DNA from: Thermoplasmata archaeon
GTDB lineage: Archaea > Thermoplasmatota > Thermoplasmata > Lutacidiplasmatales > UBA184
Direction: 5' to 3'
NCBI GenBank assembly: GCA_022750435.1
Contig: JAKIVS010000013.1
Coordinates: 1 to 52,161 of the forward strand
DNA: 52,161 bases
Made by a program: the position numbers and the translations under genes. Positions 5,059-28,898 of this stretch are shown one piece after another (within the stretch, counting starts at the first letter, position 1; the number at the start of each line of letters is the position of its first letter). Below the pieces are notes generated by a model. That model had not been told where the DNA came from. It was given only the letters and a program-made list of their open reading frames with translations, and searched no databases.

Positions 5059-5542
5059 GCCGTCGACGCGGTCTCGGGACCCGGGAGTCCCGCGGGGTGC
5101 GGCGTCCTCGACCGGTCGATCGGTCGAGCTGGTAGACGAACATCCGGTCCGCCGGGGTCTCGGTTACCGCGCCAGTGGATCGGTAGAGTCCGACGGCGGG
5201 ATCGTTGGATGGATCCGTGAAGACGAAGATCTCCTCGAAGTTCCGCCGTCGGCTGTAGGCGACAAGCCACCGAACCAGCTCGGCCCCGATCCCGCGCCGT
5301 CGGAACCCCGCATCCACCTCGATCTCGTAGAGGAACATCTGCTTCCGTGCGGACTTCAGCTGACCCAGTTCCGTCCCCCGAAGGAATCCGACGATCGCGC
5401 CTTCCTCCTCCGCGACCAGGAAGACGTTGCGCTCGTCCCGAAGGTACTTTCGCACCGCCGTGGGGTCGGGAGGCTCGTCGAGCAGGTTCGCTGCTCGGAC
5501 GACCTCTCCGAGGTCGGACGGACCGAGTCGCCGCACGGTCAT
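4988..5542 (-). CDS. GNAT acetyltransferase, aminoglycoside AAC(3)-I-like
   Basis: About 184 aa. Transfers acetyl from acetyl-CoA to an amine. Seen: MTVRRLGPSDLGEVV start, FLVAEEEGAIVGFLRG, YEIEVDAGFRRRGIGAELV (acetyl-CoA pyrophosphate loop RRxGxG/A), then VFTDPSNDPAVGLYRSTGA, which resembles the ADxGDDPAVxLYxKLG block of AAC(3)-I gentamicin acetyltransferases. The GNAT fold ends near MFVYQLDRS; the remaining ~40 residues are Arg/Pro-rich and lie opposite the permease gene, so the tail may be a non-functional run-on. ATG 5542 is chosen; an upstream ATG at 5566 is possible. The substrate need not be an antibiotic. Confidence 0.8.
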   Translation of the reverse strand: MTVRRLGPSDLGEVVRAANLLDEPPDPTAVRKYLRDERNVFLVAEEEGAIVGFLRGTELGQLKSARKQMFLYEIEVDAGFRRRGIGAELVRWLVAYSRRRNFEEIFVFTDPSNDPAVGLYRSTGAVTETPADRMFVYQLDRSTGRGRRTPRDSRVPRPRRRPRRTLPARTGGARGSPSRRSSRA

Positions 5543-5641
5543 GCCCGTCCAGTTCCGACGCGGCATTTGAAGCCGACGAGACCGGAGGGAGAGCGCGAGC
5601 CCCGAGCCATCCCCGGCGGGCCCCCGACGATAGATATCGAA

Positions 5642-26554: not shown

Positions 26555-27184
26555 ATGCGGATCATCGAGATCTTCCACTCGGTCCAGGGGGAGGGTCCTT
26601 TCACCGGATTCCGCACCTCGTTCGTCCGGACCGCGACCTGCAATCTTCGGTGCGCCTGGTGCGACACGACCTACTCCTTCGGTCCCGGCAAGGAGCGCTC
26701 CCTCCCTTCGATCGTCCGAGAGGTCGCCACGCACCGAACCCGCCACGCGTGTCTGACCGGCGGCGAACCCCTGCTCCAGAAGGAGTCCCCCGAACTCCTT
26801 CGCCGACTCTCCGCGAAGGGAATGACGACGGTCGTGGAGACCGGCGGCTCCCTGGACGTGGCGCCCTACCTGGACATTCCGGGGGTCGTCCTCAGCGTCG
26901 ACGTGAAGTGTCCCTCCTCAAAGATGGAGAGCCGGAACCGCTGGGCCAACCTCCCCTTGCTGCGTCCGTCGGACGTGGTCAAGTTCGTGGTCGCCGACCG
27001 GAAGGATTACCGGTACGCGAAGCAGGTGCTCGGCCGGGAACCGATGCCGACGAACGTCGTCTTTCAACCCGTCTACGGCACGAACGGGGGTCGGATGGCC
27101 GACTGGGTCCTGGCCGACCGGCTGGACGTTCGGGTGATGGTCCAGGAGCACAAGGTCCTGTTCGGCGACACCCCCGGCCGATAG
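26555..27184 (+). CDS. queE: 7-carboxy-7-deazaguanine synthase (radical SAM)
   Basis: 209 aa. Converts 6-carboxytetrahydropterin to 7-carboxy-7-deazaguanine with SAM and a [4Fe-4S] cluster, an early step to archaeosine or queuosine. Seen: MRIIEIFHSVQGEG (the signature QueE start), the cluster motif C29-x3-C33-x2-C36 in TCNLRCAWCDTTYSFG, CLTGGEPLLQ (SAM-binding GGEP) and VETGGSLDVAPY. Short, cap-less radical SAM length as expected. Other pathway genes are not in the window. Confidence 0.94.
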   Translation: MRIIEIFHSVQGEGPFTGFRTSFVRTATCNLRCAWCDTTYSFGPGKERSLPSIVREVATHRTRHACLTGGEPLLQKESPELLRRLSAKGMTTVVETGGSLDVAPYLDIPGVVLSVDVKCPSSKMESRNRWANLPLLRPSDVVKFVVADRKDYRYAKQVLGREPMPTNVVFQPVYGTNGGRMADWVLADRLDVRVMVQEHKVLFGDTPGR

Positions 27185-28348: not shown

Positions 28349-28777
28349 ATGTCGGACATCACGCTCCTCTCGCAGGCACAAGCCAAGGTCGGCTTCGAGT
28401 TCGTGTACGTCGGAGCCGCTCCGGTCTGCCGGACATGCCCCTACCGGCACGCGTGCCTCACGCTCGATCCGGGTCGGCGCTACTCGGTCACGCACGTTCG
28501 TCCGGTGACCCATCCTTGCGCCCTCCAGGAGACGAGCGCGGCCGTGGTGGAGGTCCAAGCCGTGGCGCGTGTGCTCGTCGTCGAGTCCCAGACGGCGGTG
28601 GTCGGAAGTTCCGTCGAAACCGGCCGCTATGGGTGCCGCCGGATGGACTGTGCGAATTGGGATATCTGCTCCGGCCCATCTCTTCCGGCCAAGCAGCGCT
28701 TCCGGATCGAGAAGGTTCATCCCGATGCGGCCGAGTGCCGCATCGGGCGAACTCTCAAGCGGGTCGAAGCCCTCTGA
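28349..28777 (+). CDS. UPF0179 family protein
   Basis: 142 aa. Uncharacterised archaeal family. Seen: ITLLSQAQAKVGFEFVYVG start, a first Cys cluster CRTCPYRHAC, VRPVTHPCAL, and a second Cys cluster CRRMDCANWDIC. The eight or more Cys residues in two groups suggest a zinc or iron-sulfur site. It starts 3 nt after egsA, so co-expression with ether-lipid synthesis is likely, but no function is established. Confidence 0.9.
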   Translation: MSDITLLSQAQAKVGFEFVYVGAAPVCRTCPYRHACLTLDPGRRYSVTHVRPVTHPCALQETSAAVVEVQAVARVLVVESQTAVVGSSVETGRYGCRRMDCANWDICSGPSLPAKQRFRIEKVHPDAAECRIGRTLKRVEAL

Positions 28778-28790
28778 GGTAACCGGTGGC

Positions 28791-28898
28791 GGGGCTGTGG
28801 GGTAGTTTCGGTGCCGGGGACGGACCCCGCACCGCTCTACTGGTCCATCCTTCGGGTTTTGGGAACCCGGGACCCCGATTCAAATTCGGGCAGCCCCA
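28791..28898 (+). tRNA. tRNA-Pro (anticodon TGG) with ~33-nt insertion in the D loop
   Basis: Acceptor stem GGGGCTG (28791-28797) pairs with CAGCCCC (28891-28897), discriminator A28898, no encoded CCA. Anticodon arm 28853-28869: stem CGGGT/ACCCG, loop TTTGGGA with anticodon TGG at 28860-28862 (Pro, G37). T arm 28874-28890: stem CCCGA/TCGGG, loop TTCAAAT. The gene is 108 nt. Removing about 33 nt from the D region (best 28809-28841) leaves a normal 75-nt tRNA with D loop AGTTT + GGTCCA, giving G18G19 and A21. The inserted segment folds as a hairpin, GGTGC-c-GGGG/CCCC-GCACC (28810-28833). An intron at a non-canonical position is the likeliest explanation; its exact borders are ambiguous because GGT occurs at both ends. 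Confidence 0.88.

Follow-up and report, generated by a model that had tools for sequence, protein, structure and literature searches.

A conserved, probable non-canonical D-loop intron in the tRNA-Pro(UGG) gene of Ca. Lutacidiplasmatales, and other interrupted tRNA genes of the same archaeal genome

The window analyzed here, a stretch of 52,161 nt, belongs to a genome (1.92 Mb, 84% complete) of a soil-dwelling member of Ca. Lutacidiplasmatales within the Thermoplasmatota, a placement that fits the euryarchaeal lineage, in the broad sense, presumed in a preliminary description of the same DNA. At positions 28791-28898 of the forward strand lies a tRNA-Pro(UGG) gene of 108 nt that carries a 33-nt hairpin insert in its D loop. 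In gene coordinates (1 = 28791), the acceptor arm (GGGGCTG/CAGCCCC), the anticodon stem (CGGGT/ACCCG) and the T stem (CCCGA/TCGGG) are all fully paired, the anticodon loop reads TTTGGGA with the anticodon TGG, and the surplus length is confined to the interval G15-G18; the sequence thus bears out the first account of the gene, including its length, its insert and its paired arms. The insert had also been described as a hairpin, a claim confirmed both by the fold of the 108-nt RNA, which beats 200 of 200 shuffles (z -3.3), and by pairing across relatives.

The stop codon of a UPF0179 gene (28349-28777, PF03684) lies 13 nt upstream of the tRNA gene, and in many relatives a DNA match extends into this gene. 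Another neighbor, at 26555-27184, encodes a radical SAM protein (PF04055) that we take to resemble QueE and that would then serve archaeosine at tRNA position 15; this position falls within the central helix (H) of the Pro-UGG pre-tRNA. Rfam matches on the stretch were all sub-threshold (VA RNA on the minus strand, P36) and were judged to be due to chance. The gene and its predicted parts, all on the forward strand, are as follows.

28791-28898, forward strand: tRNA-Pro(UGG) gene of 108 nt, interrupted in the D loop (arms, fold, orthologs, and ARAGORN after excision).
28791-28807, forward strand: 5' exon, nt 1-17, with the acceptor strand and U8 to U17 (placed by the cut that yields the isoacceptor NUU).
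28802-28805, forward strand: GTAG, the 5' exon strand of the central 4-bp helix H (Pro and Arg-GCG comparison).
28806-28808, forward strand: 5' bulge TT^T, with the predicted cut at 28807^28808 (best hairpin frame).
28808-28840, forward strand: predicted intron, 33 nt (ortholog comparison and ARAGORN).
28809-28834, forward strand: intron hairpin h', pairing 28809-28814 with 28829-28834, and an inner helix pairing 28816-28819 with 28825-28828.
28835-28838, forward strand: CTCT, the intron strand of H in the 3-4-3 register, 3/4 pairs.
28837-28840, forward strand: CTAC, the intron strand of H in an alternative register, 4/4 pairs.
28839-28841, forward strand: 3' bulge AC^T, with the predicted cut at 28840^28841 (A-N-T pattern among relatives).
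28841-28898, forward strand: 3' exon, beginning with U-G18-G19 and followed by the anticodon arm, T arm, acceptor strand and discriminator A73.

ARAGORN called no tRNA on the unspliced gene, which the Rfam tRNA model also missed, both on the 52,161-nt stretch and on the whole genome. Once the 33 nt are taken out, ARAGORN calls a tRNA-Pro(tgg), so that excision yields a canonical tRNA with the right anticodon. This spliced sequence is identical to natural intronless genes of the same order at 71 of 75 positions (G064) and 68 of 75 positions (G038). ViennaRNA assigns the spliced RNA a best fold of -35.3 kcal/mol versus -29.2 kcal/mol for the cloverleaf; the best fold of the natural intronless gene of G064 is not the cloverleaf either.

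Alignment of related tRNA-Pro(TGG) genes, a check put forward in the preliminary description, uncovered both intron-bearing and intronless orthologs and identified the insert as an intron. The 3' exon of Pro-UGG was searched against 106 genomes of the order (threshold E <= 1e-10) and found one match each in 89, all of which were read. A complete intron-bearing gene is present in 81 genomes, distributed as 68 of genus g1, five of g29, four of g28, three of g26 and one of g27, and the intron is visible in two further genomes where the gene is broken at a contig end (G004, g1; G077, g28, contig C144). One contig (G096, C17) breaks off right where the 3' exon starts, at its first base, and is uninformative on the intron. 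Five genomes of the order have an intronless gene: four of genus g24 in the same family (G061, G063, G064, G065) and one from another family (G038). Intronless genes were also found outside the order but within the class (G045, G057). The single g27 case (G073) comes from a genome rated 7% contaminated and may derive from a foreign contig. Among the 17 genomes without a match, nine were searched again and the remaining eight are all g1. Six of the nine yielded Pro-GGG or Pro-CGG loci only (G062, G066, G069, G071, G079, G085) and three yielded no locus (G037, G039, G072); the UGG gene is absent or too diverged in these nine genomes, which enter no count. A short extra Pro match in G071 was rejected as not being a tRNA.

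Across the 81 complete genes, the body of the tRNA outside the junction (72 nt) has a mean pairwise identity of 97.9% (minimum 90.3%), compared with 67-68% for the intron arms and 39% for the 30 nt upstream of the gene. The insert drifts in sequence and in length, spanning 33-39 nt when its three junction letters are included, and the hairpin is kept even though its sequence diverges. Selection on the tRNA is strong, and that on the insert much weaker except for its shape and junction letters. Since intronless orthologs occur in the family, the order and the class, excision restores the D loop, and the insert evolves fast against a near-frozen body, the reading of the insert as a non-canonical intron, already advanced in the preliminary description, is supported as clearly the best one.

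The geometry of the junction was examined on 79 distinct genes. The best hairpin frame begins 3 nt past GTAG and stops 7 nt before the conserved GG. In this frame the six outer hairpin pairs hold in 424 of 474 cells, versus 345 +/- 7 (maximum 365) in 2000 trials that exchange arms between genes, uncorrected for relatedness, and 373 of 474 in the best slid frame. The seven bases before GG comprise the 4-base strand opposite GTAG and a bulge A-N-T, of which A and T are invariant in 79/79. If each bulge is cut behind its second base, the exons give GUAG-NUU-GG, the D loop of isoacceptors and intronless relatives, in 77/79 genes (the exceptions being G007 and G017), and a cut one base later leaves NUU in only 20/79. 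The excision first proposed, 28809-28841, is therefore right as to the mature 75-nt tRNA and misplaced as to the cut, since the relatives favor 28808-28840, one base off; because of a shared U, both cuts yield an identical mature RNA. The alternative excision of 28813-28845 was discarded, as it would delete 28842-28845 (GGTC), exon bases in every ortholog read. The helix originally drawn between TAGT and ACTG gives way to one between GTAG (28802-28805) and either CTCT (28835-28838) or CTAC (28837-28840).

In the 3-4-3 register (two 3-nt bulges flanking the 4-bp helix), whose spacing is that of the best frame, H has 4/4 pairs in five of the 79 distinct genes (three g26, one g27 and one g28), 3/4 in 69 and 2/4 in five. 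Directly past the 3' bulge, the adjacent exon helix h of the canonical hBHBh' form is absent from the gene at 28791-28898 (1/4 pairs), which is thus outside that form. With H imperfect in most genes and h absent, the junction is a relaxed bulge-helix-bulge (BHB), HBh'-like and within the HBh'/BHL class, rather than a canonical one: it has a central and an intron helix, a bulge on one side and an open loop on the other. Most genes of g1, g28 and g29 have CTCT opposite GTAG (3/4 pairs) and, shifted by two bases, a CTAC that pairs fully. The intron could be cut in a slipped register in which H is GTAG/CTAC, TGGG/TCCA forms an outer helix and the 3' site lies in a bulge TGG, making the junction a bulge-helix-loop and not a 3-4-3 BHB. 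ViennaRNA prefers this arrangement in g1, g28 and g29 (mean P 0.61-0.85 vs 0.00-0.11), H reaches 4/4 pairs in 66/79 distinct genes, and two g1 genomes (G086, G120) have altered a base used by the 3-4-3 register alone. Yet the slipped register has at most 2/4 pairs in g26, g27 and the 46 distinct inserts of the tRNA-Arg(GCG) gene described below, cutting TGG behind its second base would deprive the tRNA of one of G18-G19, and the A-N-T bulge, invariant in 79/79, is the same in nine T-loop introns of the host. ViennaRNA favors the 3-4-3 register in g26 and g27, with the first intron pair in g26 at P 0.00. The slipped register is hence a possible but rather unlikely reading, and the 3-4-3 register is favored because it is the only one that fits both g26 and the Arg gene.

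The tRNA-Arg(GCG) gene of the host (L340, contig C23 of G000, about 5478-5583) has a D-loop intron at the same site and with the same junction letters as Pro-UGG. An Arg query matched 100 of the 106 genomes of the order, some in other Arg genes only, and 50 loci of 49 genomes (30 among the matches listed and 20 picked for genus coverage) were read as a sample. An insert is present at the D-loop site in 50/50 of these loci, throughout the family and also in G038. Its 46 distinct versions have H at 4/4 pairs in 44 and 3/4 in two, and the hairpin is paired in 249 of 276 cells vs 189 +/- 6 with swapped arms. The intron is absent from this site in 13/13 genomes read from the class outside the order, and also in two genomes of the order, G037 (L418, C32) and G039 (L395, C16), whose Arg-GCG genes have an insert near the anticodon instead. 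Some Arg-GCG genes are identical between genomes (G073:C133 and G066:C18; the second copy of G061, on C80, and the gene of G072:C42; G104 and G102), suggesting contaminated bins, and G073 and G104 are rated 7-8% contaminated; single-genome claims from these bins are weak for this reason.

As G038 and g24 have the Arg-GCG intron but lack the Pro one, the Arg-GCG intron is probably the older of the two. The Pro-UGG intron may be a copy transferred from Arg-GCG, a transfer made possible by the fact that both 5' exons end in TGTGGGGTAG. A recent exchange between the two genes was considered and rejected, the likeness of Pro and Arg introns being 14.46 within genomes and 14.43 between genomes (36 genomes).

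Interrupted tRNA genes are widespread in the host genome, where 38 tRNA genes were identified (26 Rfam-model hits and 12 others). Twelve have non-canonical introns: Pro-UGG, Arg-GCG, initiator Met and nine with an intron in the T loop. ARAGORN returned the expected full-length tRNA after excision in 12/12 of these cases, having returned nothing before excision in 8/12 and a wrongly bounded gene in 4/12. The T-loop introns lie at 59/60 of Asn-GUU, Gly-UCC, Arg-UCU, Arg-UCG, Ala-GGC, Ser-GCU, Ser-GGA, Glu-CUC and Gln-CUG. The additional loci are:

G000, loci L024, L025, L026, L313, L314, L316, L396, L398 and L400: the nine T-loop loci, all outside the window and listed as Arg-TCT, Gly-TCC, Asn-GTT, Ala-GGC, Ser-GCT, Glu-CTC, Ser-GGA, Gln-CTG and Arg-TCG, introns of 28-34 nt.
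G000:C15:90020-90330, minus strand (L397): initiator tRNA-Met, whose 32-nt intron sits at a different, later site of the D loop.

The junctions of the nine T-loop introns have h at 4/4 pairs throughout and H at 4/4 in three and 3/4 in six, and their bulge is A-N-T in 9/9; several of them have few pairs or none in the intron helix beside the bulge (2 in Asn and Ser-GCU, 0 in Gly-UCC). The initiator Met junction, CAGG AA^A ... CCUG AA^A, has two 3-nt bulges, H at 4/4 and no h, and h is in fact lacking in all three D-loop introns. Four other host genes have introns at 37/38: elongator Met, Tyr and Leu-UAA, detected by ARAGORN, and Trp, recognized by eye. The tRNA-Trp intron (L399, G000:C6:41900-42250) is long, like those known to harbor a C/D box RNA. 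T-loop introns recur in 12/12 suspected loci read in three relatives. G037 and G038 have them in Ala-CGC, Arg-CCG and Ser-UGA. By eye, G038, from another family of the order, also has a tRNA-Thr(TGT) with a D-loop insert and a tRNA-Arg(TCT) with both D-loop and T-loop inserts (L407, L408). The same tRNA search in G238, a genome of the class, gave 48 hits and zero truncated ones, a result at the level of hits and not of individual sequences.

The class of the splicing endonuclease, another point raised in the preliminary description, could be assigned. The host EndA is a single ORF of 353 aa with two PF01974 domains, residues 63-335 of which match 1r0v and 2gjw, and no further PF01974 hit was found in the host genome. 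With two tandem endonuclease units in one chain and no second subunit gene, the enzyme is by its sequence of the homodimeric α′2 type, the sole one found. Its C-terminal unit carries the Tyr, His and Lys that we take to form the catalytic site. An extra loop of the CSL/ASL type before the LSL helix is absent: the host protein has the same length there as A. fulgidus 1r0v, and the insertion is seen in 3p1y, presumably a loop-bearing chimera. At the place of this broad-specificity loop, the only one examined, an insertion was found in 0/41 aligned EndAs.

PF01974 matches occur in 96 of the 106 genomes of the order (two hits in 91, one in four and three in one, G010), and are absent from ten, nine rated 59-78% complete and one (G110) rated 94%. 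On a tree of EndA (41 rows, quick method), genus g24 branches first in the family, and a single change accounts for the intron state of 31 labeled rows, on a topology with long outgroup branches and several weak inner ones. As one state change suffices, a single gain of the Pro-UGG intron within the family, later than the branching of g24, is probable.

A second, unrecognized endonuclease might nonetheless excise the insert, since α′2 enzymes are called narrow in reviews (PMC6379350, PMC12397907). The two PF01974 hits of 91/106 genomes are, however, the count expected from one two-domain ORF (a placement seen for part of the pairs), and the twelve non-canonical introns of the host pair 3 or 4 of 4 positions in H and have EndA-like bulges, which makes an additional enzyme very unlikely.

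We are highly confident that the insert represents a real archaeal tRNA intron in a non-canonical place, the D loop, presumably processed by the α′2 EndA. In the pre-tRNA, the GTAG of the 5' exon would pair with the 3' end of the intron, so that each junction has a 3-nt bulge and the intron hairpin lies further out, with the intron set between nt 17 and the U preceding G18. In each bulge EndA would cut past the second nucleotide, the exons would be joined by a ligase that is presumably RtcB, and the product would be a normal 75-nt tRNA-Pro(UGG) with G18-G19. The gene and its insert, their conservation, the paired hairpin arms and the intronless genes among relatives, and the type of EndA encoded are seen directly in the sequences; splicing of Pro-UGG, its cut positions, ligation and the role of EndA are what we infer from them. 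Alternatively, the mature tRNA might keep the insert as an expansion segment that lengthens its D arm, a reading that the stable hairpin, conserved as a structure, would suit; this is extremely improbable given that intronless orthologs in the family and order have a near-identical body, that the junction letters restore the intronless D loop, that the insert drifts in sequence and length, and that Arg-GCG has a like insert.

That the gene is a pseudogene standing beside another, functional tRNA-Pro(UGG) is scarcely credible, even though ARAGORN and the Rfam tRNA model missed it and the host genome is just 84% complete, for no second UGG gene was found in that genome while CCA codons are used (5/148 Pro codons in five genes of the stretch), the 89 matching genomes have one match apiece, and the body is 97.9% identical in 81 genomes against 39% upstream. 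Examination of the other tRNA-Pro genes of the host, also envisaged in the preliminary description, showed that its Pro-CGG and Pro-GGG genes are both intronless.

The Pro-UGG insert is hence a conserved non-canonical intron, and its interest lies in its company: twelve such introns together with a loop-less α′2 enzyme. Several reviews link non-canonical introns to (αβ)2, ε2 or loop-bearing enzymes (PMC4033280, PMC4090602, PMC6379350, PMC12397907), and because they confine α′2 enzymes to canonical introns, the lineage constitutes a natural test of that rule, to which Lutacidiplasmatales, a large order with numerous sequenced genomes, is an apparent exception that could be tested in vitro. The simplest resolution is that α′2 enzymes limit junction geometry and not position, as the nine T-loop introns are near-canonical at their junctions; Pro-UGG strains this resolution most, because D-loop introns lack the outer helix and its central helix is imperfect as well. 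The most far-reaching interpretation, towards which we lean with some reserve, is that a whole order of Thermoplasmatota bears a load of non-canonical introns like that of Crenarchaeota (12 of 38 tRNA genes in the host) while keeping a loop-less α′2 EndA, so that enzyme class would not decide intron position and would constrain only a junction geometry that is loosened at the Pro-UGG D-loop site, the Pro intron perhaps being a copy of that in Arg-GCG by way of TGTGGGGTAG. The junctions at this one site grade from perfect ones in Arg-GCG and g26 Pro to imperfect ones in g1 Pro, a series that, with a gain that fits one event, offers good material on the origin and drift of introns. On the practical side, tRNA finders without intron models miss or truncate such genes.

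Published accounts of the enzymes are largely restrictive. The α4 and α2 EndA of Euryarchaeota are described as cutting canonical BHB only (PMC4033280), or a strict BHB at the canonical position (PMC4090602, section 7), and the α′2 form without loop as strict (PMC12397907). The enzymes of T. acidophilum and A. fulgidus are called narrow, and A. fulgidus EndA is reported to excise a BHL intron at 37/38 when offered full-length pre-tRNA (PMC6379350). Non-canonical introns are said to occur chiefly in Crenarchaeota and Thaumarchaeota; euryarchaeal as well as crenarchaeal sequences served to train one tRNAscan-SE intron model (PMC8450103). In the paper on Lutacidiplasmatales (PMC9287336), tRNAs were found by tRNAscan-SE in archaeal mode, and the word "intron" is absent from its main text. 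Among titles and abstract openings, with most subscription papers and the tRNA databases outside this scope, we found no literature on non-canonical introns in Lutacidiplasmatales, and excerpts of PMC4033280, PMC6379350 and PMC8450103 name no genome of Thermoplasmatota or with a loop-less α′2 enzyme that has such an intron set.

Together with that training set, a published list of tRNA genes with several introns in Methanopyrus kandleri and Methanothermobacter thermautotrophicus (PMC4033280) shows that non-canonical introns as such have precedents among Euryarchaeota, although M. kandleri has an (αβ)2 enzyme, unlike the α′2 of our host. Among archaea, non-canonical tRNA introns are best known from Crenarchaeota, Nanoarchaeota and Thaumarchaeota, where they are likewise short, lie in the D, anticodon and T arms and have BHB-like junctions (PMC4090602, PMC8450103). 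Sites 59/60 and 20/21 are among the positions listed in PMC4090602, in a list that ends with "etc." and does not itself include 17/17a. These three groups are credited with α2β2 enzymes, whereas the host, a member of Thermoplasmatota, has α′2. ARMAN, with its ε2 enzyme, likewise has introns at various positions outside Crenarchaeota, but that enzyme has three units and an ARMAN-specific loop, unlike that of the host (PMC12397907, PMC4033280). The homodimeric EndA of Ferroplasma and Archaeoglobus are granted cleavage of BHL substrates (PMC8707768, PMC6379350), in A. fulgidus at 37/38, whereas the site in the host is in the D loop. Korarchaeum cryptofilum, called in 2014 the sole archaeon with an α2 enzyme and non-canonical introns, combines a homodimeric EndA with such introns as the host does, the specific loop being present in the K. 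cryptofilum enzyme only (PMC4033280).
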